From assembly GCA_911728435.2 (NCBI GenBank), contig OU452216.1:7886342-7950341 (forward strand): 64,000 nt of DNA. Reading direction: 5' to 3'. The stretch is from Apoderus coryli (lineage: Eukaryota; Arthropoda; Insecta; Coleoptera; Attelabidae). Positions 2,640 through 31,502 of the stretch are shown one piece after another. Each line of letters opens with the position of its first letter. The stretch's first letter is position 1. The translations under genes were made by a program, and so were the position numbers. The notes below the pieces were generated by a model. It did no database searches. It was given only the letters and a program-made list of their open reading frames with translations, and was not told the DNA's origin.

Positions 2640-2935
2640 TACAAAAAAGAAATCTTATATATAATAAAAAAAAACCTTATATAATACAATTCTAATACAA
2701 AAAAAAAAACAACAACTATAATACAAAAAAAAAAACAATTCTAATACAAAAAAAAAAACAACAACTATAAACAAAATAAAAAAACAATTCTAATACAAAA
2801 AAAAAAACAACTATAATACAAAATAAAAAAACAATTCTAATACAAAAAAAAAAAACAACTATAATACAAAATAAAAAAACAATTCTAATACAAAAAAAAA
2901 AAAGAACTATAATACAAAAAAAAAACCTATTAAAT
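2640..2935. repeat. Tandem A-rich repeat (AATACAAAAAAAAAAC-type units)
   Basis: About ten imperfect units alternate A-runs of 8-12 with CAATTCTAATAC or CAACTATAATAC. On the minus strand each unit reads as a T-run followed by GTATTATAG, a strong pseudo-3' splice site. A shorter homologous block occurs at about 16,958-17,010. It lies just 3' (minus strand) of the exon at 2,941-2,977. Confidence 0.8.
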
Positions 2936-2940
2936 AACTA

Positions 2941-2977
2941 TCATCTACTTCCATGCTGCCCGTGCTGCTTGATGGAC
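2941..2977 (-). CDS. Terminal exon T2 of an AT-hook-cluster transcript (putative)
   Basis: On the minus strand a 3' splice site (TTGTTTTATAG) precedes a short exon. Entered with one base to complete a codon, it reads SIKQHGQHGSR and then TGA. This matches the outgoing phase (two leftover bases) of the MVPLDGGRGV exon at 3,983-4,042, so those two exons could form the 3' end of one transcript with a His/Gln/Ser-rich tail. Entered in phase 1 it instead reads PSSSTGSMEVDDSYLIG, so the frame is not certain. No homologue is recognised. Confidence 0.35.
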
Positions 2978-3429
2978 CTATAAAACAACAAATCTATATT
3001 AAAATCAGTTGTAATAGTTAATATGTTCAATTTTTTTGTTTAAATAAATTTTCGAGCATTATTTATACAGGGCGTACCGAGAGAAAAGAAGTCGAGTGAT
3101 ACATCATTTTAAAGCATTTTTTATCTGTTTTACAGCGATAGGTCACTTTTAATATATGCATCATAATTATCGAGAAAATTGCATTTAAAATTCCACCAGT
3201 TGGATAGTCTTATAAGAATATATTTGGTAATTGAGTGCTTTAACACAGTGATAGAGCGTGCGCTTCGCATGCGTGACAGTGCTTGAGGAAACAACAAGAA
3301 TTGTTTTAGAGAAGTTTATTACAAATGGAAATCTGCTGTAAGATTTGCGTTATATTTTGTGATAATGAGGTAAAACCTGTAAACGAATGGTAGTATGGTT
3401 TTATGGTTAATACATTAATAGGGCATTTT

Positions 3430-3552
3430 TATTAGAAGAATTTAATGGACGTAACAATAATTTTCTAGCTTCATATGTTTTCGAGATATTTACATAAAGT
3501 TTGCATTTTTAAAAAATACAAACTTTATTTAAATATCTCGAAAACAAACTGA
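3430..3552. repeat. Palindromic MITE fragment (AATTTAATGGACG... family)
   Basis: This is a foldback with arms around a T/A-rich centre. The complete version of the same palindrome is at 8,527-8,692, and half copies precede the E exons at about 10,880 and 15,770. Confidence 0.75.
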
Positions 3553-3595
3553 TTAGTTGAATGATGAATATAAAATTATTAAATCATATAACTAC

Positions 3596-3703
3596 CTGTA
3601 GTTGAAGATCCACTCCTGTTCCTGGTGAAGTGGATCCGGGCGGGTGAGGAGGAATTTTGCACCCCCCTCGCACCTCCTCTTCGCCCTTTTAAGATCCACT
3701 TAC
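3596..3703 (-). CDS. Cassette exon E1 of the AT-hook cluster
   Basis: A 108-nt minus-strand exon candidate lies between a polypyrimidine 3' splice site (TTTTTCTTGTTTTCAG) and ACTACAG|GTAGTT. Read in phase 1 it is open throughout and Arg/Gly/Ser-rich, with KGRRGGARG near the start and RSGSS near the end. Nearly identical exons occur at 11,009-11,116 and 15,928-16,035. A hammerhead ribozyme (3,806-3,855) lies 103 nt upstream. The acceptor is followed directly by GTAAGT, so the junction also looks like a 5' splice site. No known domain is seen. Confidence 0.45.
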
Positions 3704-3805
3704 CTGAAAACAAGAAAAAGGAAATACAGGATAGTGAAAATAACACAATAAAAGTGTACTTGGAACATGGTAAAATATAAAAAATATCTTTATATAAATG
3801 TTCAA

Positions 3806-3855
3806 ATTAGTGAAACATGTTTCGGAACTACAGTTCCATCTTCAGTGGCACTAAT
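3806..3855 (-). ncRNA. Hammerhead ribozyme, E1 copy
   Basis: The minus strand has the conserved core CTGAAGA (CUGANGA), a perfect 5-bp stem II (GGAAC/GTTCC, loop TGTA), GAAA, a palindromic minimal stem III (ACATGT) and a GTT cleavage triplet. Stem I is ATTAGTG/CACTAAT, seven perfect pairs with a two-base CC bulge next to the core. Minimal type I hammerheads of this form are known from Penelope-like and related retroelements. Activity is predicted, not shown. Confidence 0.85.
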
Positions 3856-3982
3856 ACCTAGTCACTTACGTTGAAAATTGTATAAATTAATTCATGGTTT
3901 AATTTTTGCCGTATACATGGATTAAATTCAATTATTTGCATTGTTATCGGGTTTTATTTGAATTTACTGTTATTATCCTTAC

Positions 3983-4042
3983 CTTAACACGCCTCTGCCA
4001 CCATCCAAAGGAACCATCTTAGTTTTCTTATACCTTGGGAGT
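3983..4042 (-). CDS. Cassette exon M1 of the AT-hook cluster (MVPLDGGRGV exon)
   Basis: A 60-nt minus-strand exon runs from a TTTATTTTTCAG acceptor to an AAG|GTAAGG donor. One frame reads LPRYKKTKMVPLDGGRGVL. Its paralogue at 12,686-12,753 differs at eight of eleven codons from the ATG onward, and seven of those differences are synonymous. That is strong evidence that this frame is or was coding. It enters and leaves in phase 2, so it joins the exon at 2,941-2,977 in frame but not the phase-1 A/B/E exons. Confidence 0.5.
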
Positions 4043-4436
4043 CTGAAAAATAAATATCAAAATCACGTTATTCAAATGATACAACAAATAGAAATAAGGG
4101 ATGGAATGATATAGGTACCTAAATTTAACCGTTATCGAGAATTTTACGAATGAATATAACAAAATCAATATTATTATTACAAATTAAGAAAGTTCCTATT
4201 AACATAGTTCCGCAAACGCATTGTAACCGAGATCAAAATTATCGTGTTAATTTCGATACTGTTTCATGTTGGGTGCCATGTGTGACAGTGTTTGAGGAAA
4301 AAGCAAGAATTAATTTTTCAAAAGATTATATTTTTCAAAAGTTAATGTTCTTATTTAGTCCTTTGGCCTAGGACAGTCGTTTGGGAGTTAAATTAAGAAG
4401 GGCAATAATACAACATACAATTAACAAGTTACTCAC

Positions 4437-4543
4437 ATGCACTGGTGATATATTTACACTGCCTGAATGGTTCCGGATCTGGGCGAGTGAGGAGGAATTT
4501 ACAACCCCCTCTCACCTCCTCTTCGCCCTATGATCCATTTATC
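4437..4543 (-). pseudogene. Degenerate E-type exon (E2)
   Basis: The 3' splice site is the same as in the intact E exons (CTTGTTTTCAG). The exon begins DKWIIGRRGGERGL and then meets TAA; other frames also stop early. It may be a broken cassette or a terminal exon ending at that stop. The downstream end (CACCAGTGCAT|GTGAGT) differs from the intact E exons. Confidence 0.4.
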
Positions 4544-4645
4544 CTGAAAACAAGAAAAAGGAAATACAGGATAATGAAAATAACGCACTAAAAGTGTATT
4601 TAAAACATGGTAAAATATAAAAAATATCTTTATATAAATGTTCAA

Positions 4646-4695
4646 ATTAGCGAAACATGTTTCGGAACTACAGTTCCATCTTCAGTGGCACTAAT
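4646..4695 (-). ncRNA. Hammerhead ribozyme, E2 copy
   Basis: Same architecture as 3,806-3,855, with one G-U wobble in stem I (ATTAGTG against CGCTAAT). It ends 103 nt upstream of the E2 acceptor. Confidence 0.85.
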
Positions 4696-5130
4696 ACCTA
4701 GTCACTTACGTTGAAAATGGTATAAATTAATTAATGGTTTAAATTTTGGAGGAAAATAAGAACATAATAAAATAAAATCAAATACAGTTCTTTGCATTTT
4801 TGTTTTAAATACGGCCCTGAATTTTTTATTTTTTAAATTTAAAGCCATTTTTTTTTAATTTTTTTTTTTGAAAAATTTTTTTTTTATTTTTTTGAAAATT
4901 TTTTTTTTCAATTTTTTTTAAAATTTTTTTTTTTAATTTTTTTGTTGAAATTTTTTTTTGAAAATTTTTTTTTTTTATTTTTTTCTTGAGGAAAAAGCAA
5001 GAATTAATTTTTCAAAAGATTATATTTTTCAAAAGTTAATGTTCTTATTTAGTCCTTTGGCCTAGGACAGTCGTTTGGGAGTTAAATTAAGAAGGGCAAT
5101 AATACAACATACAATTAACAAGTTACTCAC

Positions 5131-5237
5131 ATGCACTGGTGATATATTTACACTGCCTGAATGGTTCCGGATCTGGGCGAGTGAGGAGGAATTTACAACC
5201 CCCTCTCACCTCCTCTTCGCCCTATGATCCATTTATC
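5131..5237 (-). pseudogene. Degenerate E-type exon (E3)
   Basis: Second copy of the tandem unit, identical in layout to E2 at 4,437-4,543, with the same early stop after RRGGERGL. Confidence 0.4.
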
Positions 5238-5339
5238 CTGAAAACAAGAAAAAGGAAATACAGGATAATGAAAATAACGCACTAAAAGTGTATTTAAAAC
5301 ATGGTAAAATATAAAAAATATCTTTATATAAATGTTCAA

Positions 5340-5389
5340 ATTAGCGAAACATGTTTCGGAACTACAGTTCCATCTTCAGTGGCACTAAT
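5340..5389 (-). ncRNA. Hammerhead ribozyme, E3 copy
   Basis: Identical to the 4,646-4,695 ribozyme. The CUGAAGA core, GGAAC/GUUCC stem II, GAAA and GUU triplet are all intact. Confidence 0.85.
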
Positions 5390-5944
5390 ACCTAGTCACT
5401 TACGTTGAAAATGGTATAAATTAATTAATGGTTTAAATTTTGGAGGAAAATAAGAACATAATAAAATAAAATCAAATACAGTTCTTTGCATTTTTGTTTT
5501 AAATACGGCCCTGAATTTTTTATTTTTTAAATTTAAAGCCATTTTTTTTTAATTTTTTTTTTTGAAAAATTTTTTTTTTATTTTTTGGAAAATTTTTTTT
5601 TTCAATTTTTTTTAAAATTTTTTTTTTTAATTTTTTTGTTGAAATTTTTTTTTGAAAATTTTTTTTTTTTATTTTTTTCTTGAGGAAAAAGCAAGAATTA
5701 ATTTTTCAAAAGATTATATTTTTCAAAAGTTAATGTTCTTATTTAGTCCTTTGGCCTAGGACAGTCGTTTGGGAGTTAAATTAAGAAGGGCAATAATACA
5801 ACATACAATTAACAAGTTACTCACATGCACTGGTGATATATTTACACTGCCTGAATGGTTCCGGATTCGGATTCTTCTGTTCATCTTAATTGTTTTATTT
5901 TAAAAATAATATAAGTAGGTATAATAAAAAATAAAAAATAAAAT

Positions 5945-5973
5945 TCATTCGGCCGCATCACAGTCATTGTCCC
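5945..5973 (-). CDS. Terminal exon T with acidic tail
   Basis: The 3' splice site TTTTGTTTTTCAG is followed by two bases finishing a codon, then DNDCDAAE and TGA. The incoming phase matches the preceding B1 exon, giving an Arg at the junction. Short acidic C-termini are typical of HMGA proteins. An AAAATAAAAC poly(A)-like signal lies downstream. Confidence 0.45.
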
Positions 5974-8900
5974 CTGAAAAACAAAACATAAATAATATCA
6001 TTGAATGTCAAGCATTTTGGTGTCCGACATAATCAGATTCAGTTGTAATTTTGGTTTCATTAGTTAGGGTTGGTTATCCCTCTCTTAAAACAATCTTCTC
6101 TGTGCGACCAATGACAATGAAGGATTTGAAACAGAATGTGTTTTGCGGCATCTAGCAAAACTATTTGCTTGAGCAAAGTTAACACAAAATACGATTTTTT
6201 CAACATGAATCGAATTATGAAAGTTTCTTGAGAAATAACCTAAACAGGGCCGGGGTAGGTGGTCTATTAAAAATAACTGGATGATGGGTAAATTGCCTAA
6301 CATGCAGAGGCCAATAAAAAAAATAGCCTAACAGAATTATATTCAATACTGTATTAGATGTAGGTTATTTACGTAATATTATGTACTTTGAACATTTTTG
6401 GCTTTTAACTTACTCTTGTTTTTCCTTGGACGCCCCGGGGGCCTCCTCGGCGTTTTTCTTATCATTTTTTTCTTTTTAGGCCGCCCCGGGGGCCTGTGTG
6501 CCATAACTTCTGAAATAAATATAACATATTATATAATTAATTATGATTTACTTAATACTTTAACAATTTGATAGAGGATGATGCATTTAAAAATCATACA
6601 GAAGTAGGTAACGTATGAATTTAATAGATACTTGTAAGTTACCTATAGCGTTAGAAATATGCATAATACAATGCTATTATTACCATTCTCCAGACTAACG
6701 AAGGGTCAGAAAAACCTTAAATATACAAGGTTTTTCAAAAAAGCTGGCTCGTTTCGAAAATATTTCAAACAAATCGTCCTGAGGCAGTCATCTTTAACAC
6801 CCTGTATTTTTGTAAATAAGGACTTTTCGACAACTTACAATTTTCGGCCAGCTTTTTTTGAAATACCTTGTATAGGCATTAAATGTTTTAACAAAATTGT
6901 AAGAGTGAGAAAATAATGAGTTTTAGGTCTTTTGTAAAACAAACTAATGTATTTTAAGCCAACGTTTCGACAATCTTTATTGTCATCCTCAGGGCACAAA
7001 TCATTGTTTCTTTTTGTCGGTAAGAATTTTTGATATAAACGAGACACGCACAAATAGAACATGTATGTATACTTATGTATAAATAAAATAACATAAAAGT
7101 ATAACAACAATACAATTAGTCGTCTAATCTGGATGGTATTTTATTTAGTGTGTTGTTATACTTTTATGTTATTTTATTTATACATAAGTCGTAATGGATT
7201 ATTTCAGACAATAATTGTGATTTATTTAAAATATTAAATTTTTATTTTTATTTACGTAATATTATGTACTTTGAACATTTTTACCTTTTAACTTATTGTT
7301 CTTCACTTTTTTCGGGCGGCCCCTTTTTCTTGGTATTTTAACCCGCATTGATCGGTTTAAACGGGGCCGCCCCCGTCCCCGACAAACCACCGTGGTCATC
7401 GAACTCCTCCTTGGTTTTTCTGAAAGAAATATAACATATTATATTCATTATGATTTATTTAATACTTTAAGAATTTGATAGATACTTGTAAGTTACCTAT
7501 AGCGTTAGAAATATGCATAATACAATGCTATTATTATTACCATTCTCTAAACTAACGAAGAGTCAGAAAAACCCTAAATGTACAAGGTTTTTCAAAAAAG
7601 CTGGTTCGTTTCAAAAATATTTCAAACAAATCGTCCTGAGGCAGTCATCTTTAACACCCTGTATCTTTGTAACTTACAATTTAGGTTCGCTCACAAATTT
7701 TGACCAGCTTTTTTTGAAACACCTTGTATAGGCATTATAAATGTTTTAACAAAATTAAGCGGCAGTTTCACATAGCAGTTGACTGCTACAGCGATTCAAT
7801 TTTGTAGTGGGGACTAAGCAACTGCGATAAGATTTACTGCGACGTCCTGTTTGACAAGATTTGATAAATACATTTCTTTAAAATGGCGCCAAATAAAAAA
7901 ACACTGCTTAGTTTTGCAATACTTTGTTTGTTATTGAAGAAAAAGCTAGTCTCAAAATACATAACACACACAATATGGGTCTCAAAACGAAAAAGTACTG
8001 GGTAAAAATGCCATTATTAAATAGACCACGTTTCAACATCGAAAATAATTCATTAACGGAGTTATTAACTGTAAATGAGGATTTTCAAAATTTTACCATT
8101 TTTTTTTTCTAGGTCTTCAGTTAATTCCATATTTTCTGTAATTTTTAACAGTGCAGCTTTTCTTTTTATAATCCAATGACTTAATGTTCCATAAATATTA
8201 ATTTTCTTCAGGCTGTTTGATCAGACTCCAAATATAGGTATAAGGCATTCATGATTGTGCACTTATTTCTTAATCGATTTGAAAAATTCTTTTTGGATCA
8301 AAGAGAGAACACTTTAACAGAGGCTTATATAGGAATAAAAAAATTCTTAGCAATTTATATTAACTTCAAAATAAATTTTTAAGAAATTTTATTTTTATTC
8401 CTATATAAACCTCTGTTAAAGTGTTCTCTCTATGATCCAAAAAGAATTTTTCAAATCGATTAAGAAATAAGTGCACAATCATGAATGCCTTATACCTATA
8501 TTTGGAGTGTGATCAAACAGCCCTAATAGAAGAATTTAATGGACGTAAAAACAATTTTCTAGCTTCATATGTTGTCGAGATATTTACATAAAGTTTGTAT
8601 TTTTTAAAAATGCAAACTTTATGTAAATATTTCGACAACATATGAAGCTAGAAAATTATTTTTACGTCCATTAAATTTTTCTATTAAAAATGCCATAATA
8701 AATTATTTTTAAATCTTGTCGGAAACAAATTATTATTCTTCTAATTTAGGATGGATTATTTGAATGATGAATATAAAATTAACTACCTGTAGTTGCAGAT
8801 CCACTAGGTCCTGGTGACGTGGATCCGGGCCGGTGAGGAGGAATTTACGCCCCCCTCTCACCTCCTCTTGGCCCTTTAATCTCCTTACTTACCTGAAAAC

Positions 8901-11900
8901 AAGAAAAAGGAAATACAGGATAGTGAAAATAAACGTATGTAACTATGTAACATGAAATTACCTATTTCGGAACTACAGTTCCATCTTCAGTGACACTAAT
9001 ACATAGTCACCTACGTTGACAATTGTATAAATTAATTTATGATTTAAATTTTGGAGAAAATAATAACACAATAAAATAAAATCAAATACAGTTCTTTGCA
9101 TTTTTGTTTTAAATACGGCCCTGAATTTTTTATTTTTTAAATTTAAAGCCATTTTCAATTCAAAAATGGTGTACTTAAATAAGTTTTCAGTATTTTTATC
9201 CGTTATTTAAACTGCTTCAAGAAAAATAGTTGACTGAATCCAGAGAAGTAGATTTAGCAAAAACATACTTTCGTTGTTATTTATTATTATTTACCAATTT
9301 ATTTCTGTCTCAGTACAAGATTTAATTCTGTACGAAGTTTTTTTAACCCTGCAGCACTCGAACTATGAGCATTTCTCTCACGCTTCGCCTACAATCGCAA
9401 GATTTCACGACATAGACACTGGATGAGCCTACCTCGCTCTCTAGCTGACTTTGTGTTCACGTTGCGCCCCCTGATTAGTTAAATTCAAAATTTTTTTTCA
9501 ATTTTTTTTTGATTTTTTTCTAAAATTTTTTTTTTTAATAAGAAACATTTTTTTTCCTTGAAATTTTTTTTCTTGATTTTTTTTTTCATTTTTTTTATAA
9601 CCCTCAATGACTTTTTTCATAGATAAAACTACCACACAACGACTGGGAAATCCCGCAGGGATTTCTTGTTTGCAATATTATAAGATACGATGACACGCGA
9701 TCGGGTATTCGAATGTTCATAATACTGGCTCTTGCACAAAATTTTGTTGTCAGATCTCATGTTTTCGCCATATTTTCAACTGTTTTTACAATTTTGTTTG
9801 AAATCAAGAAATCGTCTTCTATCAAACAGAATGATGACAACTGTGTCATTTAGTAATTTTTCTTTCAAAATGTTACACCATGATCATTATACCAAGGTAA
9901 GGCCAATGGCTTTAACAATGATAAATACACGTTCACGAAACTTCAGCTTCACATATTCAGTGCCATACCGTTCAAGTTTGGTCTCAATTCCGAGTCAATT
10001 AAGCTAGTATTGACAAGACGGTTGGATTTCAACATGAATCGAATTATGGAAGTTTCTTGAGAAATAACCTAAACAGGCCCGGGGTAGGTGGTTTATTAAA
10101 AATAACTGGATGATGGGTAAATTGCCTAACATGCAGAGGCCAATAAAAAAAATAGCCTAACAAAATTATATTCAATACTGTATTAGATGTAGGTTATTTA
10201 CGTAATATTATGTACTTTGAACATTTTTGGCTTTTAACTTACTTGTCTTCCTCGGACGACCCCTCGGCCTCCTCGGCGTTTTAGGCCCCGGCGGCCTGTA
10301 CGCCATAACTTCTGAAATAAATATAACATATTATATAATGAATTATGATTTACTTAATACTTTAACAATTTGATAGAGGATGATGCATTTAAAAATCATA
10401 CAGAAGTAACGTATGAATTTAATAGATACTTGTAAGTTACCTATAGCGTTAGAAATATGCATAATACAATGCTATTATTACCTATAGGTACATATAGGAA
10501 ATTATTTGTTTTTTTCCTGATTTTCATTTAAATTTAAAATAATCGAAAACACAACACGTAAACGAAGATATACTTTTTGATTTACTGGGTGTATCGTTAG
10601 TTCATTTATTTATTATACATTGTCAAACCTATGTAGAGTACCTAGGTAGTAGGTTTTTTAAAAACATTTTTTCGTCGTTACTCACAATTATTTATTATTA
10701 TTCGACAATTTATTTCTGTCTCGGTACAACATTTTATTCTGTACGAGGTTTTTTAAATTTTGTTGAAATTGTTGAACATGAAAATGAACAAAATACAGTC
10801 AAATAATGATTATGTATTTGCAATTTTATAGGATACGATGACACGCGATCGGGTATTCGAATGTTCATAATACTGGCTCTCGAATCTCGAAAACAAATGA
10901 ACCTAGAGAATTATTTTTATATCTTGTCGGAAACAAATTATTATTCTTCTAATTTAGGATTGATTAGTTATAAATTATAAATTAAAAATTATTAAATCAT
11001 ATAACTACCTGTAGTTGAAGATCCACTCCTGGTCCTGGTGAAGTGGATCCGGGCGAGTGAGGAGGAATTTTGCACCCCCCTCGCACCTCCTCTTCGCCCT
11101 TTTAAGATCCACTTACCTGAAAACAAGAAAAAGGAAATACAGGATAGTGAAAATAACACAATAAAAGTGTACTTAGAACATGGTAAAATATAAAAAATAT
11201 CTTTATATAAATGTTCAAATTAGTGAAACATGTTTCGGAACTACAGTTCCATCTTCAGTGGCACTAATACCTAGTCACTTACGTTGAAAATTGTATAAAT
11301 TAATTTATGGTTTAATTTTTGCCGTATACATGGATTTTAGAAACATGAACACTAGAATATACAAAAGAAAAAATAATTAATTTTTAAGTTTTCTAAATTT
11401 TATCAATTGATTTCATTTATTGTTTTTATATTATTGAATATTTTTCACAAAATGCTAAGTGGTTTTGTTAGCATTGTATAACTGCTTGACTCTGATTTTT
11501 CTTTTGTATATTTTTAGTATTCACGTTTCGAAAATCCATGTATACGGCTTAGACACTAGGTAAGATTTTAGTATAGCTTATTAATGCCACTGATGATGGA
11601 ACAGTGAGTTCCGAAACATGTTTGGCTAACAGAACATCAATATAAAACATTTTCTAGAGTAGACGTCTTTGTTTTGTAAATACATCCCGCTCCTCGTCGT
11701 AATGGATTATTTCAGAAAATAATTGTGATTTATTTAAAATATTAAATTTTTATTTTTATTTACGTAATATTATGTACTTTAAACATTTTTACCTTTTAAC
11801 TTAATGGCTTTCACTTTTTTCGGGCGGCCCCTTTTTCTTTGTGTTTTAACCCGCATTGATTGATTTAAACGGGGCCGCCCCCGTCCCCGACAAACCACCG

Positions 11901-13678
11901 TAGTCATCGAACTCCTCCTTGGTTTTTCTGAAAGAAATATAACATATTATTATTAGGAATGGGCTTGTTTAACAAAACAAGACTTAAAATCCGAGAGTTT
12001 GTCTGTCAACCACTATACTTTCACCAGACGGCCGTTTCGTCGATCCACGACTCATCAGTGGTGATCGGTCAGTAGTTGACAGCCAAACTCTCGCAAATAA
12101 TGTGGTATATACCACAAACGGTACAGAGATGTAAAAGGATGTGTTTGGCGACATCTAGTTTTATTGTTGGTAGTACGCAGAGTGAACACAGTTACTTTAT
12201 GGGGTCAGAGACCTCCCAGGCAGTCGATATAGGAACTGTGTTCACTCGGTGTACTACCAACAATAAAACTAGATGTCGCCAAACACATCCTTTTACATAT
12301 TATTATTAGGTATATATAGGTAAGTTTAAAAAGTATGATTTTTTAAATTTTTGAACCCATTTTTCAACCCCTTTCCTAAGCTCAATATTTCCTAAAAGCT
12401 AATGAGCACCTACACAACATATCCTGTAGTGTTTATGTACCAAATTTGCTAAAATATTATATTAATAAAAATTAAATCCAACGACTGCGATTTAAAAAAA
12501 AAGGCTGAATGTACAAGTTTCAATTTGGATGCCGAAAGAGAAGTGATTTTTTAGTATACGATAATTATATTATTCTTAGAGAATAGTCGAATATAGCAAA
12601 AAGCTGTTGTACCTACTGAACGGATTAAATTCAATTATTTGCATTGTTATCGGGTTTTATTTGAATTTACTGTTATTATCCTTACCTTACTACACCTCTA
12701 CCCCCATCCAGGGGCACCATTTTTGTTCTTCTGTATATGGGCTTTTTATCTTTCTGAAAAATAAATATCAAAATCACGTTATTCAAATGATACAACAAAT
12801 AGAAATAAAGGATGGAATGATATAGGTACCTAAATTTAACCGTTATCGAGAATTTTACGAATGAATATAACAAAATCGATATTATTATTACAAATTAAGA
12901 AAGTTCCTATAAACATAGTTCTGCAAACGCATTGTAACCGAGATACAGGGCGTTCAAAATTAGCCCCTGATGATGGTTTTTTGTTAATATTAACCTACCT
13001 ATTTGATTTTTAATTCTTATAATACCTATTATATATTATAATTATATCAAAATACAAGAAAACCATTTTTAGGCAAATTACAATTACTTTTATTAATGTA
13101 TACCACCTATTTTTGAATTGAAAATGACTTTAAATTTAAAAATAAAAAAATCCAGAGCCGTATTTCATAAAACCAAGTTGATGATGGTATTTAAAAAACA
13201 AAACGTCGTAGTGAAAACATTTGTAAACGCTATGTTATTCTCCCCAACAAAAAAGAATGAGTTGCTATTAACAATTGGGAATTTAGAGAATATTATTTAC
13301 AACTACTATAACTACATTTAAATACATATACACTGTGGCACAAGAATAATGGCCGCCACAGTTTAAAACAAAGTACTATTTTTGTTAAATGTGTTGAGTG
13401 TATCGTTTTTTAAACTTGTTAAAAGAATTACATAATGTTTAACGTATCGTATTTTGCGAGTTACATAAAAATAAATGTAATTTCAGTCGTACACCTTCGA
13501 AATAAAAAAAATAAAGGAAATAATTTTCATCTTACTTGAAAGAACGGGAATAAGTCTCTGATGATTTATGGCTATTACTTAAGATTTGAATATGATAGAG
13601 ACTTCCGAATACTTTCTTAAAGCAAAGCTAAGTTGTATCTAATAACTAAACTAAAGTACTTACTTTTTTTTCATCCAT
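5945..13678 (-). CDS. Putative HMGA-like protein with multiple AT-hooks, assembled from cassette exons
   Basis: The proposed minus-strand coding order is start exon 13,664-13,692 (ATG at 13,678), M2 12,686-12,753, A2 11,793-11,927, E5 11,009-11,116, B2 10,243-10,311, A1 7,285-7,419, B1 6,414-6,509 and terminal exon 5,945-5,973. The A and B exons hold seven AT-hook cores in total (RGRGRPR and KRGRPKK twice each, plus PRGRPRK, PPGRPKK and PPGRPRK). The last exon adds an acidic tail (DNDCDAAE). Several minor-groove hooks plus an acidic tail is the layout of HMGA chromatin proteins. A, B, E and T exons are mutually in phase. M2 leaves in phase 2 and joins A2 in frame only if an AG 11 nt inside A2 is used. 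AATAAA-like sequence lies just past the stop near 5,895. The whole model is inferred without transcripts. Confidence 0.45.
6200..6660. repeat. B-cassette duplicate (pair of 10,031-10,490)
   Basis: About 450 bp, including exon B1 and both flanking intron stretches, is repeated at 10,031-10,490 with few changes. The exon was therefore copied together with its intronic surroundings. Confidence 0.85.
6414..6509 (-). CDS. Cassette exon B1: two AT-hooks
   Basis: A 96-nt minus-strand exon lies between TTTATTTCAG and AAGA|GTAAGT, phase 1 in and out. Its 31 codons contain RPPGRPKKKK and RRPPGRPRKNK, each with the GRP core and flanking basic residues of an AT-hook. The local CG-rich codons (CCCCCGGGGCG) contrast sharply with the AT-rich surroundings. 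Copy B2 at 10,243-10,311 lacks 27 nt in frame. Confidence 0.6.
6952..7000 (-). ncRNA. Hammerhead ribozyme, second family
   Basis: On the minus strand, CTGAGGA is followed by a perfect 6-bp stem II (GACAAT/ATTGTC, loop AAAG), then GAAAC, a palindromic AACGTT stem III, and GGC pairing back to GCC at the base of stem I, with further pairs beyond a mismatch. It belongs to a different sequence family from the E-cassette ribozymes and lies in the intron between A1 and B1. Confidence 0.65.
7190..7510. repeat. A-cassette duplicate (pair of 11,693-11,950)
   Basis: Sequence from the GTAATGGATTATTTCAGA motif through exon A1 and beyond is repeated at 11,693-11,950. The exons are about 95% identical by eye. 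Confidence 0.85.
7285..7419 (-). CDS. Cassette exon A1: two AT-hooks
   Basis: A 135-nt minus-strand exon lies between ATTTCTTTCAG and AAAAG|GTAAAA, phase 1 in and out, 44 codons. It contains CRGRGRPRLNRS and then PRKRGRPKKVK, two textbook AT-hooks about 15 residues apart. It differs from A2 (11,793-11,927) partly by synonymous changes. Confidence 0.65.
8210..8522. repeat. Large foldback element, about 120-bp arms
   Basis: The sequence begins GGCTGTTTGATCA and ends TGATCAAACAGCC. The arms are nearly perfect inverted copies around an AT-rich spacer near 8,330-8,400. No coding capacity; a MITE or foldback transposon. Confidence 0.9.
8527..8692. repeat. Near-perfect palindrome (MITE)
   Basis: Two arms of about 80 bp meet at a T/A centre near 8,606. 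Fragments of this MITE flank several E exons. Confidence 0.9.
8787..8892 (-). pseudogene. Degenerate E-type exon (E4)
   Basis: Splice signals resemble those of the intact E exons, but the length is 106 nt rather than 108, and the phase-1 frame stops at the second codon (GT-AAG-TAA). It would have to be skipped for the AT-hook frame to continue. Confidence 0.4.
8955..9000 (-). ncRNA. Degenerate hammerhead ribozyme, E4 copy
   Basis: The CTGAAGA core, stem II and GAAA are kept, but the stem III/cleavage segment has become TAGGTAAT, so the GUH triplet and stem I' are damaged. It is probably inactive, in line with the decayed E4 exon beside it. Confidence 0.5.
9480..9605. repeat. T-rich low-complexity tract
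   Basis: Runs of 6-10 T interrupted by GA, CA or AA. Similar to the tracts at 4,845-4,985 and 5,545-5,680. Confidence 0.8.
10243..10311 (-). CDS. Cassette exon B2: one AT-hook
   Basis: A 69-nt minus-strand exon, phase 1 in and out (donor ACAA|GTAAGT). It encodes RRPRGRPRKT, one consensus AT-hook. The first hook of B1 is reduced to RPPGPK by a 27-nt in-frame deletion, so the frame survived the loss. Confidence 0.55.
11009..11116 (-). CDS. Cassette exon E5
   Basis: Intact 108-nt E exon, phase 1 in and out, open throughout, Arg/Gly/Ser-rich (KGRRGGARG then RTRSGSS). A hammerhead lies at 11,219-11,268, 103 nt upstream. RG-rich linkers are common next to AT-hooks, but the function is unknown. 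Confidence 0.5.
11219..11268 (-). ncRNA. Hammerhead ribozyme, E5 copy
   Basis: All core bases are intact (CUGAAGA, GAAA, GUU), with perfect stems I and II. It forms one end of the foldback element 11,219-11,626. Confidence 0.85.
11586..11626 (+). ncRNA. Hammerhead ribozyme, plus strand
   Basis: CTGATGA, stem II GGAAC/GTTCC with loop AGTGA, GAAAC-AT-GTT, and stem I GCCA/TGGC directly at the junction. All catalytic core positions match the consensus. Confidence 0.8.
11793..11927 (-). CDS. Cassette exon A2: two AT-hooks
   Basis: A 135-nt minus-strand exon, phase 1 in and out, with CRGRGRPRLNQS and RKRGRPKKVK. The donor is AAAAG|GTAAAA. It differs from A1 at a handful of bases, two of them synonymous. 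The alternative +2 frame hits a stop after 26 codons, while the AT-hook frame is open to the end. Confidence 0.65.
12021..12064 (-). ncRNA. Hammerhead ribozyme, classic GUC type
   Basis: The minus strand reads TCACCA, CTGATGA, stem II GTCG/CGAC (loop TGGAT), GAAA, palindromic CGGCCG, the GTC cleavage triplet, then TGGTGA pairing perfectly (6 bp) with the start. Every conserved position is present. It is flanked by an inverted GAGAGTTT/AAACTCTC repeat (about 11,992-12,093), so it sits inside a small foldback element. Confidence 0.9.
12129..12299. repeat. Foldback element with 65-bp arms
   Basis: ATGTAAAAGGATGTGTTTGG at one end is inverted at the other. The arms are nearly perfect around a spacer of about 40 bp. 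Confidence 0.9.
12686..12753 (-). CDS. Cassette exon M2 (MVPLDGGRGV exon)
   Basis: A 68-nt minus-strand exon from TTTATTTTTCAG to AAG|GTAAGG, phase 0 in. It follows the MDEKK start exon in frame and adds KDKKPIYRRTKMVPLDGGRG, a basic N-terminal segment. It leaves with two leftover bases. The paralogue M1 is at 3,983-4,042. The mostly synonymous differences between them support coding. Confidence 0.5.
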
Positions 13679-13692
13679 TTTGGAGTTGTGAT
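13664..13692 (-). CDS. Start exon (MDEKK) of the AT-hook cluster
   Basis: The acceptor TACTTATTTCAG is followed by 14 nt of 5' leader, then ATG in a good context (CAAAATGG), five codons, and the donor |GTAAGT at phase 0. It joins M2 in frame. The leader exon is probably the one ending at 18,418. Confidence 0.4.
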
Positions 13693-15250
13693 CTGAAATA
13701 AGTATATTGCTTTTATTTAATAATAATAATAATAAAGGTCTTTTATTGCATATTTAACAAACAAGTAAATTAATTTTTTATATACGCAATTGGGCGAGAT
13801 TCAGTACGTCTGTTCAATTGATAAATATTAAGATCCGAATATTAATTGAACATTAGTAGCAAACGGTTCAAGATACAATCTAAAATAACCGCCTACAATT
13901 TAGATACAGGGTAATTCAAGGCTTTTAATTTTTTAATATTTTCGGTATATACAGAGGTCTTTTTGGGTGTTGTAGTAATATACACAGGGTGACCACAGTT
14001 CACTTTTGAATGTGTTATTTATTATGTACAGGCTTTTAAATAATTTACTTGTATACAGGGTAATCCCAATGCACTTTGAAGTGAATTATTTATCATGTTC
14101 AAAACAATATATACAGGGTGATGCAAAAAATATATTAATTTTACCACACGTAAATTTTTTAGAGCAAAACGAAAATGTGAGAAACTTTTTTAGTTTGCTA
14201 GAATGGTTTCATACATTTTTAGCTCTCCATATCATATATGTAATATATGATATGGAGAGCTAAAAATATATATAAATTTTAGATAAATGACAAAAAGGTC
14301 ATAAAATTATTACTTTTACACTTAAATATGGAGAGCTATTCGTGCCTCGAGGGCAACAGTTTATTAAGATTACGGAATAACTTTGGCCTCTGAAATTCTT
14401 TTATAAAAAAATTAAATTTCTTTTTGCAAATGTTGACGGTCTTGAATCATATCCCAACTAGCAATTCGACATTCTTAAAGAACTAATATATTTTATAATT
14501 ATTTTATTGTCGCTTAGTTAAAACTTTTTTGTTCTTTAAAGTTTCGTTTCGTGATTAAACTGCTGTGTTAAACTTTTCTGTGACAAAAATTGTTTTAAGA
14601 ACGTTTTTACAGCAAAATAATAAAATAGTTATAAAATATGATATTGTAACAATTTTATAAACGTTTATAAAATACTTTTTGTAGGACGAATTTGTTTCGA
14701 ATGATGATTGGTTTTGAAAGCATTTTGTAAAAGTACTAGTCTGGATTAACTTGTTCCTTTAAAAACAATTATAAAATTATTCTGTTAAAGTACATTTCGT
14801 AATAATAAAATAGTTTTTTTATTGTCGTTATTAAGAGCGATTTGTTATCTGCAGCAAATTGGTGCGCAAATTAATAATTACAAAATTGTTTTTTAGTTAT
14901 TTTATTAAAAACAATAAAAAAATAAATATGTTGCCAATACATATTTTATAAAATTAAAATGTTGTCATAAACATTACCCAGAACTAATATATAACATAGT
15001 CTTATTTATTTTCAACTGATATTTATTGTTATATCATACACAGGTTTAAAATGTTGTCCAAACGAAAAGCAGTTGTGCATTTAATAGAAAATTAATTACA
15101 ATATTATAAATTAGCAAAGGCAAAACATTAGTGACTATAATAAAGAGTAGCAAACTGTAATGGAATCTAATCAAATTAATGACAATTTATAAGACACCAA
15201 ATATTTTGAAGACTGATAAATTCTCAGGAGGAATTATTACTAGATGGTGA
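13693..15250. other. AT-rich intron/intergenic with TACAGGGT repeats
   Basis: Four TATACAGGGT-type motifs occur at 13,900-14,120. A perfect palindrome, TTTTTAGCTCTCCATATCAT and its inverse, lies at 14,217-14,267. No exon or gene is recognised in the remainder. Confidence 0.5.
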
Positions 15251-15254
15251 GCGG

Positions 15255-15762
15255 GTAGCCGAAATAGTCCAAAGGCCTAATTGGGCCATTTTTCTTCGAA
15301 AATGAGCAAGGATTGGCCGTTACAGTCAATGGCGATCGTTATCGGGCCATGTTGAACGAATTTTTATTCAGAAAAATTGAAGAGGAGGATATTGGTAACA
15401 TTTAGTTTCAACAGGACGGCGCTACGTGCAACACAGCCGAAGCTACACTCGATGTTTTGCGCCCTGTTTTTGAAGATCGCATTATCAGCCGCAGAGCTGA
15501 TGTCGTTTGGCCACCTCGGAGCTGCGATTTGACACCGTTGGACTATTATTTGTGGGGTGCCGTCGTCAAATATAAGTGTTACGTCGACAAGCCAGAGACA
15601 ATTGACGCTTTAAAGAACAATATTCGTGAAGCCATTGGTGAAATACAGCTGCACACAATCGATAATGTGCTTAAAAATTGGACCGATCGTGTAGAGGCTA
15701 CTGCATGGCCAGCCGAGGCAGCCATTTGAATGAAATTATTTGTCATTTCTGGCAGACCCAAT
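15255..15762 (+). pseudogene. Truncated mariner-type transposase
   Basis: The 3' half of the same family as 30,228-31,502. It keeps QQDGAT with the second catalytic Asp, PPRSCDLTPLDYYLWG with the third, and the end KNWTDRVEAT. The N-terminal domain and first Asp are missing and the frame is broken near 15,410. It ends at the terminal inverted repeat CTGGCAGACCC. Confidence 0.85.
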
Positions 15763-15927
15763 ATTTACATAAAGTTTACATTTTTAAAAAATACAAACTT
15801 TATGTAAATATCTCGAAAACAAATGAACCTAGAGAATTATTTTTATATCTTGTCGGAAACAAATTATTATTCTTCTAATTTAGGATTGATTAGTTATAAA
15901 TTAAAAATTATTAAATCATATAACTAC

Positions 15928-16035
15928 CTGTAGTTGAAGATCCACTCCTGGTCCTGGTGAAGTGGATCCGGGCGGGTGAGGAGGAATTTTGCACCCCCCT
16001 CTCACCTCCTCTCCGCCCTTTTAAGATCCACTTAC
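15928..16035 (-). CDS. Cassette exon E6
   Basis: Intact 108-nt E exon (KGRRGGERG then RTRSGSS), phase 1, upstream of the start exon on the minus strand. It is therefore not in the main coding model unless another upstream start is used. It lies within a cassette of about 750 bp (15,790-16,560) that duplicates 10,870-11,640. Confidence 0.4.
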
Positions 16036-16137
16036 CTGAAAACAAGAAAAAGGAAATACAGGATAGTGAAAATAACACAATAAAAGTGTACTTAAAACAT
16101 GGTAAAATATAAAAAATATCTTTATATAAATATTCAA

Positions 16138-16187
16138 ATTAGTGAAACATGTTTCGGAACTACAGTTCCATCTTCAGTGACACTAAT
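16138..16187 (-). ncRNA. Hammerhead ribozyme, E6 copy
   Basis: Intact CUGAAGA/GAAA/GUU core. The stem I bulge is UC rather than CC. It ends 103 nt upstream of the E6 acceptor. Confidence 0.85.
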
Positions 16188-16503
16188 ACCTAGTCACTTA
16201 CGTTGAAAATTGTATAAATTAATTTATGGTTTAATTTTTGCCGAATACATGAATTTTAGAAACATGAACACTAGAATATACAAAAGAAAAAATAATTAAT
16301 TTTTAAGTTTTCTAAATTTTATCAATTGATTTCATTTATTGTTTTTATATTATTGAATATTTTTCACAAAATGCTAAGTGGTTTTGTTAGCATTGTATAA
16401 CTGCTTGACTCTGATTTTTCTTTTGTATATTTTAGTATTCATGTTTAGAAAATCCATGTATACAGCTTAGACACTAGGTAAGATTTTTGTAAAGTTTATT
16501 AAC

Positions 16504-16544
16504 GCCACTGATAATGGAACAGTGAGTTCCGAAACATGTTTGGC
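16504..16544 (+). ncRNA. Inactivated hammerhead ribozyme, plus strand
   Basis: Same as 11,586-11,626, but the core reads CTGATAA: the essential G of CUGANGA is A. Stems are intact. Expected to be catalytically dead. Confidence 0.75.
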
Positions 16545-16839
16545 TAAGTGAAAATCAATATAAAACATTTTGTGGAGTAGACGTCTTTGTTTTGTAAAAA
16601 TACGTAAGGAAGTTCATATCCACTTCCGGCATAACCGGAAGTGCAGTCATATTGAAAATATTTGTAAAAAGAAACTATTTCCTTCTTATATTTATGTTTT
16701 CTCCTAAAACTTCTAATGTAAGGCGTATATAATATCATTGTAACATGAAATTATCTGCTTCCACGCTTTCTAACAATTCAATTCAATATTTAGAAAACTC
16801 CACAAAGAATCACCACATCGTCCTACGTAATTATTTCAA

Positions 16840-17032
16840 GTTGCACCTACCTTGTTCAAGTTGCTCCAGTGCTTCCAGTCAAGTTACCCAAGTATGGGTG
16901 ATATATTTAGACTCTCTGCATCTTCTGATCCACCTTCTCCTCCATATATACATATAATACAAAAAAAAAAAAAAACCCAACTATAATACAAAAAAAAAAA
17001 AAAAAAAAACTTGACATTCTGGTCCATTCATC
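16840..17032 (-). other. Decayed E-like exon expanded by T-runs
   Basis: The acceptor TTTTTTATTGCAG is followed by DEWTRMSS (compare DKWII of E2), then two long T-runs with GTATTATAG, then GGAGGAGAAGGTGGATCAGA, and a good donor (AACAAG|GTAGGT). The segment with AAATATATCACC aligns with the end of E2, so this looks like an E exon invaded by the A/T repeat seen at 2,640-2,935. Confidence 0.35.
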
Positions 17033-17039
17033 CTGCAAT

Positions 17040-18410
17040 AAAAAAAAGAATAACATTACACTCACACTAAAATTAATGAAAATCAGTATTGAAATGGTCT
17101 CCAAAAACCCATTTTTTTTGAAAACAAATCATTTATTCTTTCTAACAAAATTTTTACAACACATTTTGAGTCCTCTAAACAGTGCTAAAAACACTGGTAC
17201 CCAGGATACAACTAATAATGCCATACGCTACGAACTTCATAAGAAAAACAATAATGTAATTTAATCCTTACAATAGAAACACAAACCGAAAGTTGGGACA
17301 AAATATAGAATAGAATATGGTTCTAGACTCTAAGGTGAACCCAGCTCAAGGTACATCTCAACATATTTTTCTTTAAATTTAGCTTTACTAGGAGCCATTA
17401 AGTAAATATTCAAGTAATTGTAAAGTGCTAATTACTGAAAAAAAAAAATGGTATGCCACTGTTTTTTTTTAAGTAAAAATTATTTCTGGAATCCTTGTTC
17501 AATTTACAACAAAAAAACACTCCTCACTTTTTTTCGTTTGACACATCGTTTGCCAGTAAAAAATTAAAATTCTTTAAGCAAACTGCAATTCAACCAATAC
17601 TTACTTTCGAGTTAAAATTTTCGTTTCTGATTAATTTGTTTTCAGAAATCAGTATGAGAAAATTTTAATTTTTTATTACCAAATGGCAGGTCAAACGAAA
17701 AAAAATAAAAAGACTTTTTTGGTGTAAATTGAACAAAGATTCCTGAAATAATGTTTACTAAAAAAAATTTGCCCAAAGATGTGTGCGTACAAACTCCACT
17801 GGTGGAATTGAAATAAAAATTTTTACATAAAATGATGTAGGTATCTAAATTATCTTGCAAACGTTGCAAATTTATTATTATATTATTTCAATTCCAGCAG
17901 TGGAGTCCGTTCAGACAAATCTTTGAACAAATTTAGTGAAAAAAAAATGGTATGCCACTGTTTCTTTTGTTCAATTTACAACAAAAAGGTTTAGTTGATA
18001 TAATTAAGATGCTATTAATTATTATGTATTATTATTGTTAACAATTATTTCATTTAAAGGGCAAAACATTTCTTATTTTATGCAAAATAATTCTATTCTA
18101 CTTAGACTAAATAAGTAGGTAGTAGTAAATAAACATTATTTTTAAATTCTATCAGATTTTGCTATTTTAGTAAAAAAGTTGTCTTATTCTTATCACCCCT
18201 CACCTACAATTCAATTAGTTTAATGATAAATAAGCACCATTTTTACTCTAATATAAGTACTGCAAATCTTCATATTTATTAAATTTTCTATTTTTAAATG
18301 TCACAAAAAATAATATAATATTCACTTTAAAGCTATGACCTTCTGAAGGTCAGCAGGATTCAACTACTGCAAACAAAATAATTTTTCAGTTCTATAATGA
18401 TAAATTTAAA
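17040..18410. other. AT-rich intergenic/intronic sequence
   Basis: Several diverged copies of a short repeat around ATTCAATTTACAACAAAAA and its inverse (about 17,500-17,760 and 17,945-17,990). No coding region recognised. Confidence 0.4.
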
Positions 18411-18417
18411 AACTTAC

Positions 18418-18690
18418 ATTTTTGAAATTTAATCCAACTTATTACACAATACATGTAATTGTTATATTTACACTGCACCGGTAATACACAATGCACAAAC
18501 AATACACAAATTTTTGAATTTTTAAATAAAACGTTGCTAAATAGATACTTCGCGTACCCGTTTTCACAAATAAATGGCGGAGAGTTAACTGTTGACAGCA
18601 TACGCGAATTTCCTTTTGTGCCGAGCCAATGCGAATCCTCGTGCGCGCGTCTGCTTGTTGCAGGCCGGGTTTATACAGCATAATCATAAA
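18418..18690 (-). promoter_or_regulatory. CpG-rich promoter and 5' leader exon for the AT-hook cluster (putative)
   Basis: A locally GC/CpG-rich stretch (GACGCGCGCACGAGG, GGCTCGGC) in otherwise AT-rich DNA runs on the minus strand into an exon-like segment ending at a consensus donor (CAAAAAT|GTAAGT) at 18,418. It has no long frame, as expected of a 5' UTR exon. The next downstream acceptor with a good start codon is at 13,692. The transcription start is not pinned. Confidence 0.4.
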
Positions 18691-30227: not shown

Positions 30228-31502
30228 TTGGGTCTGCCAGATAACTTTTTTTTTTTTGAAAATGCTATAAAAGAAAAACTGCTGAATATTTCCTCAAATT
30301 TCTTTTTTTATTTTAAAGTACAATCCTTCCGGTTAATAATGACAAATAATTTCATTCAAATGGCTGCCTCGGCTGGCCATGCAGTAGCCTACACGATCGG
30401 TCCAATTTTTAAGCACATTATCGATTGTGTGCAGCTGTATTTCACCAATGGCTTCACGAATATTGTCCTTTAAAGCGTCAATTGTCTCTGGCTTGTCGGC
30501 GTAACACTTATCTTTGACGGCACCCCACAAATAATAGTCCAACGGTGTCAAATCGCAGCTATGAGGTGGCCAAACGACATCAGCTCTGCGGCTGATAATG
30601 CGATCTTCAAAAACAGGGCGCAAAACATCGAGTGTAGCTTCGTCCTGTTGAAGCCAAATGTTGCCAATATCCTCCTCTTCAATTTTTGTGAACAAAAATT
30701 CGTTCAACGTGGCGCGATAACGATCGCCATTGACTGTAACGGCCACTCCTTGCTCATTTTCAAAGAAAAATGGCCCAATTATGCCTCCGGACCAAAATCC
30801 GCACCAAACAGTGACTCGTTTTGGGTGCATCGGCTTTTCAATGTATGCGTGCGGGTTTTCTGTGCCCCAAATGCGACAATTTTGCTTGTTTACATACCCG
30901 CCAAGATCAAAATGAGCTTCATCTGAAAAGATGATCTTTTGGCAAAATCGGCATCTTCTGTAAGTCGATCTCAGGCCCACTGAGCGAAGCGAAAACGCAT
31001 TGGATGGTCAGTTGGCTTCAACTCCTGAACCAATTGGACTTTGTATGGCGTCATACCAAGGTCTTTATGCAAAATTCGTCTCAATGATGTCTCCGAAATG
31101 TTCAATTGTTGAGACCGACGGTGAATTGATGTTGATGGCGCTTCACGCACACTTTCTGCCACAGCAGCAATATTCTCGGGTGTACGCACTGTTTGCTTTG
31201 GTTTATCGATGAGGATGCCAGTTTCTTTCACTTTTTTCACGAGATAACGAACATACGGAGCTGACGGTGCTTCTCTTCTATCCAAAATCCGTACGCAATT
31301 TTCGCACACATTCTGCAACATTACCATGATTTTCAAAGTAATGTCGCAATATTTCCCAGCGTTGTTCAAGCGTATACACAACCATATTCGTTCAGCGAAA
31401 GGATAAAACTAATTATCTGTCAAATCAGACATGAGCTAAGTGTTACCCTTGACGAAATAAGCACTAGTTGAAAAAAAAAAACGTTAGATGGCGGACCCGA
31501 TA
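30228..31502 (-). mobile_element. Defective mariner-family transposon
   Basis: The terminal inverted repeats (TTGGGTCTGCCAGATAAC at the left; TCGGGTCCGCCATCTAAC, inverted, at the right) are flanked by TA. The minus-strand transposase is in two frames: an N-terminal part (31,381-30,971) with helix-turn-helix sequence (SIHRRSQQLNISETSLRRIL) and a catalytic part (30,980-30,333) with IFSDEAHF and CDLTPLDYYLWG. One frameshift joins them, and the region around the second Asp is deleted (QQDEATLDV against QQDGATCNTAEATLDV in the 15.4-kb copy). Not functional. Confidence 0.92.

Follow-up and report, generated by a model that had tools for sequence, protein, structure and literature searches.

The window analysed here, i.e. 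the whole stretch of 64,000 nt at positions 7886342-7950341 of contig OU452216.1 of Apoderus coryli (C24 hereafter; 10.3 Mb of a genome of 428 Mb in 129 contigs), contains on its minus strand a series of short exons, several of which encode AT-hooks. Positions without a prefix are window positions, gene copies are named by their position in kb on C24 (7711, 7717, 7764 and so on) and L-numbers (L030, L038, L043 and so on) denote loci elsewhere. In the window lies, in all probability, a single and partly decayed member of a gene family that has been amplified locally and codes for small, likely nuclear proteins. The new result is that, in this family, single coding exons have been exchanged for far older versions in copies that are otherwise about 99% identical. 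As a whole, the best explanation is a family of spliced AT-hook/coiled-coil genes that would evolve by segmental duplication and short interlocus gene conversion of exon variants, to which we assign a probability of roughly 0.78.

The exons of the window copy are listed in Table 1. Amongst the 15 with an acceptor (S, M1, M2, A1, A2, B1, B2, D, T, four E and two Ed), AG was found at 15 of 15 acceptors and GT at 14 of 15 donors, the exception being the terminal exon D; the donor of T is weak (gttttttttt). Frames are open, with phase 1 at both ends, in A1, A2, B1, B2 and the intact E copies, and seven GRP cores lie in four exons (two in A1, two in A2, one in B1 and two in B2). Consensus splice sites, phase-1 frames and seven AT-hooks had all been claimed from the sequence in the original prediction and were confirmed, as was its view that the cassettes were duplicated together with their introns. 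Searched alone against Pfam, exon A matched AT_hook (PF02178) in two stretches with 23.7 bits (cut-off 17.4), while exon B2 matched no family at E<=1. The second AT-hook of A1 also aligned with the distant relative L044 (86% over 28 columns, E 0.004). That these exons are more than chance is seen from their open frames with indels in threes and from spliced intronless copies elsewhere in the genome. Exon A (11793-11927) holds a second open frame of 26 codons, KTKEEFDDYGGLSGTGAAPFKSINAG, which is the frame entered from M1; an acidic stretch resembling this peptide follows the AT-hook in L044.

The exons had further been regarded as one freely combinable gene, which does not hold. M and S are not phase-1 exons (the acceptor side of M is phase 0 or 2, its donor side phase 2). 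With S ending in phase 0 and M1 in phase 2, the joined S-M1-A1 reads MDEKKKDKKPIYRRTKMVPLDGGRGVVRKTKEEFDDYGGLSGTGAAPFKSINAG followed by a stop inside A1, without AT-hooks. Four exons known from the intronless copies described below, P1, P2, G and C, could not be matched to the sequence separating M1 from A1 (blastn, E<=1). A complete AT-hook frame is possible from an ATG in B1 (B1-A2-B2-D). Three fates are conceivable for the window copy: it may be silent, it may encode a shortened AT-hook protein from B1 or A1, or its sequence may act as a donor. An acidic tail at the end of T, as in HMGA proteins, had also been proposed; an acidic exon does exist, but it is D. T is probably the internal GPSS exon of the family, judging from an exact match of 13 nt to the retrocopies at the acceptor (2927-2977, E 0.012) and from its peptide read against L030 and L043. 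At the S position, other copies read MSVDNK instead of MDEKK. The final 60 nt of the putative 5' untranslated exon are 100% identical in three other minus-strand copies, and its plus-strand homologues end in AAAAA/gtaagt (a slash marks an exon boundary), the junction seen in retrocopy L030. The decayed C fragment (16851..16889) shows eight clustered mismatches against copies 7711 and 7843.

E had been counted amongst the coding cassettes. From the proportions of nonsynonymous (pN) and synonymous (pS) differences, pN/pS is 0.27 for B (without the 43-nt hook exon), whereas it is 0.82 for E (7 distinct copies; pS 0.106, pN 0.087, introns 0.065). Of the 16 loci used for comparison, intronless copies or relatives, none matched E (E<=0.01), and its hairpin fold is strong in both copies folded (Table 1). 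On neutral pN/pS and absence from those loci, a coding role for E is unlikely. All 18 E copies collected start CAG/GTAAGTGG, an acceptor followed directly by donor-like sequence; this start may possibly be a recursive splice site, or E may be a hairpin element, and it looks like a neutral one. Exons A, B and E found no match in the retrocopies at E<=0.01.

Table 1. Features of the window copy, other family copies on C24 and distant relatives.
Feature	Position	Strand	Remarks
Putative 5' untranslated exon	18418..18690	-	donor gtaagttttta; 3' end 18418
Decayed 3' fragment of C (coiled-coil) exon	16851..16889	-	stop just upstream by reading; end bases differ blockwise between copies
E element 1 (108 nt), open in phase 1-1, probably a non-coding hairpin	15928..16035	-	pN/pS 0.82; fold z -3.0
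S, start exon ATG GAT GAA AAA AAA (MDEKK), phase 0 out	13664..13692	-	homologous start exon in L030 and L038
M1 exon KDKKPIYRRTKMVPLDGGRGVV, phase 0 in / 2 out	12686..12753	-	other type (17/68 differ) in copies 7717, 7809, 7863
A1 exon, two AT-hooks, phase 1-1	11793..11927	-	PF02178 match, GRP cores
E element 2	11009..11116	-	fold z -3.4
B1 exon, one AT-hook, phase 1-1	10243..10311	-	GRP core, open frame
E element 3, 106 nt, broken frame	8787..8892	-	exon-type match
A2 exon, two AT-hooks, phase 1-1	7285..7419	-	GRP cores, open frame
B2 exon, two AT-hook cores, phase 1-1	6414..6509	-	GRP cores, open frame
D, terminal coding exon, acidic tail DNDCDAAE stop, then 3' untranslated region	5945..5973	-	homologue at C24:7833471 joins L043 exactly
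Ed, decayed E-like exon, 107 nt	5131..5237	-	exon-type match
Ed, decayed E-like exon, 107 nt	4437..4543	-	exon-type match
M2 exon LPRYKKTKMVPLDGGRGVL, phase 2-2, start of second, downstream gene fragment	3983..4042	-	exon-type match
E element of downstream gene fragment	3596..3703	-	exon-type match
T exon, phase 1, PSSSTGSMEVDDSYLI	2927..2977	-	probably internal GPSS exon; could run on as terminal exon to downstream stop
T exons of the five minus-strand copies	C24: 7710972, 7748544, 7805032, 7843842, 7889268	-	last is the window copy, right-most
Plus-strand family blocks	C24: 7733, 7780, 7830, 7879 kb	+	exon-type matches
L044, distant relative, 173 aa	C1:26.33 Mb		motif, GPSS linker, heptad region, KKRGRG
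Further distant relatives	C16:9.72 Mb; C1:21.28 Mb		

The gene was at first placed at 2941-18690; the family is far wider on C24. A DNA search with window 2941-6000, in which 40 of 3,625 candidates were scored and all counts are hence lower bounds, gave at least 119 genome matches, mostly at 7.71-7.90 Mb and near 9.0 Mb of C24, and amongst the matches listed were a relic on C10 and short pieces at 81-83% on C12, C14, C15 and C17. Intron-containing copies were, amongst those matches, found on C24 alone apart from the C10 relic. Amongst the matches listed, those to this DNA, to the M motif and to the retrocopy protein are clustered, not dispersed, which bears in part on the possibility, raised in the original prediction, that A and B are pieces of a transposon protein spread over the genome; the M-motif pattern (up to 2 mismatches) occurred at 51 places, all on C1 and C24, against none for the reversed control. 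On 250 kb of C24 assembled from stretches, five large minus-strand copies are seen with four plus-strand blocks between them, and DNA and exon-type matches relate the copies through tandem and segmental duplication. Copies 7748 and 7843, for example, lie 95.3 kb apart as measured from their matches to 2941-6000. C24:7820001-7830000 (L021) contains a compact C-hook-D gene end at 7822.6-7824.7 kb with a repeat array upstream, and its C and hook exons rank amongst the best retrocopy matches. An Rfam search of the window gave 0 matches, and viral contigs gave 39 pattern matches, 0 of them confirmed.

C, newly recognised here, is a coiled-coil cassette exon of phase 1-1. All 47 C exons with intact flanks (14 distinct) have a length divisible by three and no stop; at least four decayed C fragments, including the one in the window, lie outside this set. 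An array at 7781-7788 kb comprises 36 units, mostly at 194 bp spacing, 33 of them with 48-nt exons. In a simple count on four hand-chosen peptides, hydrophobic residues occupy 6/9, 9/11, 8/9 and 8/10 of the heptad a and d positions. Complete open frames result from B1-A2-B2-D and from C-B-D; the plus-strand C-B-D models read MLQTVDERIKSIERRIEELEKWKKEVMANRAPGPKTPRRPRGRPKKKRDDDAADQ, presuming use of their start ATG, and plus-strand members end in DDDAT or DDDAADQ. The canonical product, as read from the spliced retrocopies, would begin with a short start exon and the motif SPxYxRTKMVPLDGGRG, continue through a SPRP/GPSS linker and the coiled coil, and finish with an AT-hook and a short tail that several members have in acidic form. 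Judging from known AT-hook proteins, it may dimerise via its coiled coil and bind AT-rich DNA, as a chromatin protein of the germline. In Pfam, no full-length family was found to match this coiled-coil AT-hook combination. The original prediction mentions neither exon C nor the wider family, and neither the retrocopies nor the divergence of exons beyond their introns.

Three separate intronless copies (L030, L038 and L043) preserve the order of the message: start, MVPLDGGRG motif, SPRP, GPSS, coiled coil, AT-hook and tail. Aligned to C24, exact GT/AG junctions were obtained for the untranslated exon (...AAAAA/gtaagt), for M (ttttcag/...TTAAG/gtaagg), for the donor of C (...GACAAG/gtaggt), for both ends of P1 (ttatttcag/AATCAG...GAACAA/gtaagt) and for the acceptor of D (tttttcag/CGGACAATG), the D exon at C24:7833471 being identical to L043 at 41/41 nt; the ends of the hook exon (cag/AATACACAAGG...AATAA/gtaagt) gave an approximate fit only. 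As three separate intronless copies keep the exon junctions, they show, at the level of genomic sequence, that the family genes are spliced as predicted, and since retrocopies must enter the germline, the family is probably transcribed there. By reading, L038 and L043 start at AGTCTTG, and the plus-strand genes have ttCAGTCTTG at that place, which we take to be an initiator-like site.

Fragments of three different retroelements are found joined to messages of this family. Eight intronless copies of the L030 type are found at C1:23.58-23.62 Mb, with five of seven spacings at 3.7-4.0 kb. They are joined to a 5'-truncated long interspersed nuclear element (LINE): in two fully read units a LINE frame with a reverse transcriptase domain follows the spliced copy, and the endonuclease profile was matched only from position 62. 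A 102-aa frame, MPVDTQKKSPIYLRTKMVPLDGGRGVLRISPRPPIAEQKTEENPAPGPSTNPDMKLIDQRMRTEIEELQKDVNELKQWRQEQTRRGLGRPNKTPKPKKNNRQ, is intact in four of the eight copies, two of these with one replacement, and broken in the other four; the L030 tail is NNRQ, not acidic. Two different 5' ends occur amongst the eight copies, and at L042 (2111-5160, C1:23.604 Mb) a 5'-truncated LINE frame comes after a spliced copy, an arrangement that recurs about 3.74 kb away. L038 lies after copia-type gag and integrase-core frames and before a frame read as the integrase of another element (unmatched in Pfam), and contains several repeats of M-P1, with stops. L043 on C16, which reads ...GPSSNPDLQIIDERIRSVERKIEELDRAMEKKINELEKWKQDQTRRGLIRPQNRKKNTPQLPKKITDNDCETK, is flanked by a Baculo_F-type envelope frame on one side and, on the other, by a frame with weak likeness to an integrase (below cut-off). 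No poly(A) tail or target-site duplication was seen on reading L030, L038 and L043, whose insertion ends are not defined. Retrocopies joined to retroelement pieces are as expected for template switching, and they likely arose by template switching of retroelement enzymes, a route for which there are precedents.

On comparison of exons with the introns that surround them, the exons of several types proved far more diverged. For exons gathered by their similar flanks, a choice that favours low intron divergence near splice sites and omits decayed copies, summed over pairs that are not independent, M (6 distinct) gave pS 0.69, pN 0.18 and introns 0.11 (pN/pS 0.26), C (13 distinct) 0.49, 0.20 and 0.056 (0.41), and B (5 distinct, without the 43-nt hook exon) 0.52, 0.14 and 0.049, or 0.56, 0.21 and 0.050 (pN/pS 0.38) with that exon included. 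M, B and C are thus under purifying selection. For example, window M1 and the exon at 7863198 differ at 0 of 180 intron sites and at pS 0.62. An excess of divergence in exon P1 on C10 was considered and rejected (exon 80% over 25 aligned columns, flanks 90% and 82%).

Comparisons free of the selection by similar flanks gave the same picture. In a 2.8-kb comparison of copies 7764 and 7863, 17 of 68 sites of the M exon differ, from its first base on, against one site outside the exon. The longest alignment between copies 7748 and 7843 (15.65 kb) contains 57 mismatches, and seven or more per 70 bp are reached at just two clusters, the M exon (17) and a C fragment (8). Over 34 alignments (>=97% identity, >=1 kb, same orientation), which overlap and are not independent, exon sites of S, M, A, B, C and D differ at 196/5,008 (3.9%) and the rest at 434/136,706 (0.32%); 16 of 18 mismatch clusters overlap annotated exons, and the other two are one place counted twice, an unannotated A-like fragment. 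In less similar alignments (94-96%), clusters occur outside exons as well. In an array of eight 233-bp M units, variation is seen at 23 of 68 columns in the exon but at 1 of 163 in the spacer (Fisher 5e-13), with 8/2/13 variable columns at codon positions 1/2/3; the C array gave 14/48 against 8/146 (Fisher 4e-5), with codon positions 6/2/6. In a second M array about 4 kb from the first, spacers differ at 0 or 1 of 163 sites (4 or 5 in the last unit) and exons at 15-18 of 68, the spacer figure of 0 or 1 applying to two of three units of one array against seven units of the other. The M peptide is nearly constant across variants, and the excess divergence is therefore largely synonymous. On these grounds positive selection on the protein was rejected as sole cause, and ordinary cassette duplication was rejected for M, B and C from their pS of 0.49-0.69 against introns of 0.05-0.11. 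An introner-type origin of the identical introns was also discarded, as entire copies, up to 15 kb long, are nearly the same apart from their exons, and fragments of exons occur in array spacers.

The variants are discrete and recur in different combinations. M type a occurs in 7764 and 7899 and type d in 7717, 7809 and 7863, and four combinations of S and M are seen in five copies: MSVDNK with a (7765), MSVDNK with d (7718, 7864), MDEKK with a (window) and MDEKK with d (7810). Different parts of one copy hence differ in their closest relative, both in the S and M combinations and in M exon versus flank. The exon of array unit 7 is recombinant-looking, and gene-type M exons differ by two and one bases from array members 1.1 Mb away. 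This pattern is plain in the alignments; gene conversion is its probable cause. The family would evolve by segmental duplication plus short interlocus conversion, with introns and spacers homogenised while anciently diverged variants of S, M, B and C persist and are transferred singly between the homogenised cassettes, in tracts shorter than a cassette. Discrete variants common to several copies, the recombinant-looking exon and identical short flanks argue for such short tracts, and exons that have reached a distance of about 25% may be refractory to conversion or maintained by selection. Exon history then becomes separable from intron history at single-exon resolution, offering a clean case for the interplay of gene conversion, heterology barriers and selection.

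A number of observations weigh against this explanation. Gene conversion by itself leaves identical introns beside exons near synonymous saturation unexplained. Exon A shows no excess over its introns (4 distinct; pS 0.054, pN 0.035, introns 0.098) and finds no match in the three retrocopies. The joined five-hook and C-B-D models gave no AT_hook match in Pfam at E<=0.01, and searches of protein collections found no relatives (one yielded no candidate, the other 37, of which not one reached E<=1). In the window copy P1, P2 and G are absent and C is not intact; because of these missing exons and the stop in S-M1-A1, that copy may be dead or no more than a sequence donor.

A bolder proposal is that the tandem M and C arrays are stores of exon variants feeding expressed AT-hook genes through exon-sized gene conversion. 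Near-identical spacers with diverged exons, and gene M exons one or two bases from array members, are in its favour, as is the M array located after a C exon, which by phase is probably unreadable in frame as ordinary exons. Donor-cassette systems of yeast and trypanosomes are comparable in logic. We offer this proposal tentatively and consider it doubtful; if true, it would amount to cassette switching in an insect-type chromosome, exon by exon.

The locus may also be viewed as a graveyard of broken copies, in which the open frames are leftovers and no protein of the window is expressed, a view partly compatible with the conversion explanation. The frame conflict between M1 and A1, the four missing canonical exons, the fragmentary C, the neutral and partly broken E and the broken frames in four of eight LINE-linked retrocopies would all be expected of it. 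It is nevertheless somewhat unlikely given the low pN/pS of M, B and C across distinct variants, the indels in threes, the exon-specific differences in otherwise near-identical copies and the complete frames of B1-A2-B2-D and C-B-D. Local amplification, arrays of exon repeats, signs of conversion and interleaved inverted copies that could yield double-stranded RNA would suit a selfish or conflict system, e.g. a cluster of meiotic drivers with suppressors, in which an arms race drives amplification and conversion. The wtf genes of fission yeast are an example, evolving via duplication, change in coding repeats and non-allelic conversion (PMC9562144). With M variants that encode nearly the same peptide and an excess that is largely synonymous, however, such a system appears quite unlikely here, but genomic conflict would be directly testable if germline expression were confirmed.

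Selection on the mature message might likewise produce synonymous change, if exons escape small RNAs and introns, being spliced out, do not. The differences in the M array do lie in the exon with third positions favoured, and intronless and inverted copies could feed small RNAs; identical discrete variants nevertheless recur in separate copies, which argues for block transfer rather than repeated new mutation, and the C array varies as much at first as at third positions, making this very improbable. Least credible to us is that the whole unit is a transposable element, or the captured gene of one, spreading by transposition. On C1 and C16, relatives do adjoin pieces of retroelements, and the introns contain dispersed repeats (the 81-83% pieces on C12, C14, C15 and C17), yet intron-containing copies occur, amongst the matches listed, only on C24 and as the C10 relic, the copies arose by tandem and segmental duplication, and the element-linked copies are spliced and therefore derived from a gene.

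Besides the AT-hook exons, the window contains frames of other kinds. A tyrosine-recombinase frame at 48266-48862 (-) matched Phage_integrase (6e-8) and, below cut-off, DUF3504 (2.8e-5), with a similar copy at 60622-61217 (+); both are perhaps Crypton-type. A CD36-family frame lies at 47458-47772 (1.7e-28), with a similar-looking frame at 58217-58513. Transposase frames at 30333-31381 (-) and 15457-15729 (+), the smaller inside the AT-hook locus, are taken by us to be mariner-like; the frame at 30333-30980 gave no Pfam hit at E<=0.01.

HMGA (HMGI/Y) proteins are small, with several AT-hooks of GRP cores and basic flanks and an acidic C-terminal tail. The family described here resembles them in its multiple AT-hooks and in the acidic tail of D-type members (DNDCDAAE, DDDAT, DDDAADQ), L030 ending in NNRQ. 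It differs in its coiled coil, its conserved N-terminal MVPLDGGRG motif and its multigene, exon-array organisation; the HMGA likeness claimed originally thus holds for hooks and tail, but no HMGA family was amongst the Pfam hits at E<=1 or E<=0.01. In genes of the Dscam type, tandem homologous exons form mutually exclusive arrays. The arrays on C24 are likewise tandem and homologous, and M, entering in phase 0 and leaving in phase 2, could be used in frame only one at a time unless another exon lies between. The C24 spacers differ in being nearly identical, and L038 shows M-P1 repeated within one copy. Literature searches for AT-hook cassette genes in beetles gave nothing on topic amongst the papers listed, and those listed for AT-hook multigene conversion families did not contain the term AT-hook, by which absence from print is not proven.

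For the evolutionary pattern, other parallels are available. The wtf genes share a multigene family, coding repeats and non-allelic conversion (PMC9562144), a likeness by description and not by sequence comparison, but encode poison and antidote proteins. In snake three-finger toxins, accelerated segment switch in exons to alter targeting (ASSET) changes exon segments within stable introns whose segments remain more than 85% alike (PMC2474615); toxin segments, as far as that account goes, become distinct peptides, whereas whole exons on C24 are swapped for homologues that keep the phase and almost the entire peptide. In primate L/M opsins, introns are homogenised by gene conversion while exons are kept divergent, and introns are less diverged relative to polymorphism than synonymous sites, the gibbon opsins being a milder form of what is seen here (PMC3213168). 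The opsins, as that source presents them, are two genes with selected amino-acid differences, whereas the C24 family combines many copies and single-exon swaps at about 99% identity with near-saturated synonymous divergence and a conserved peptide.

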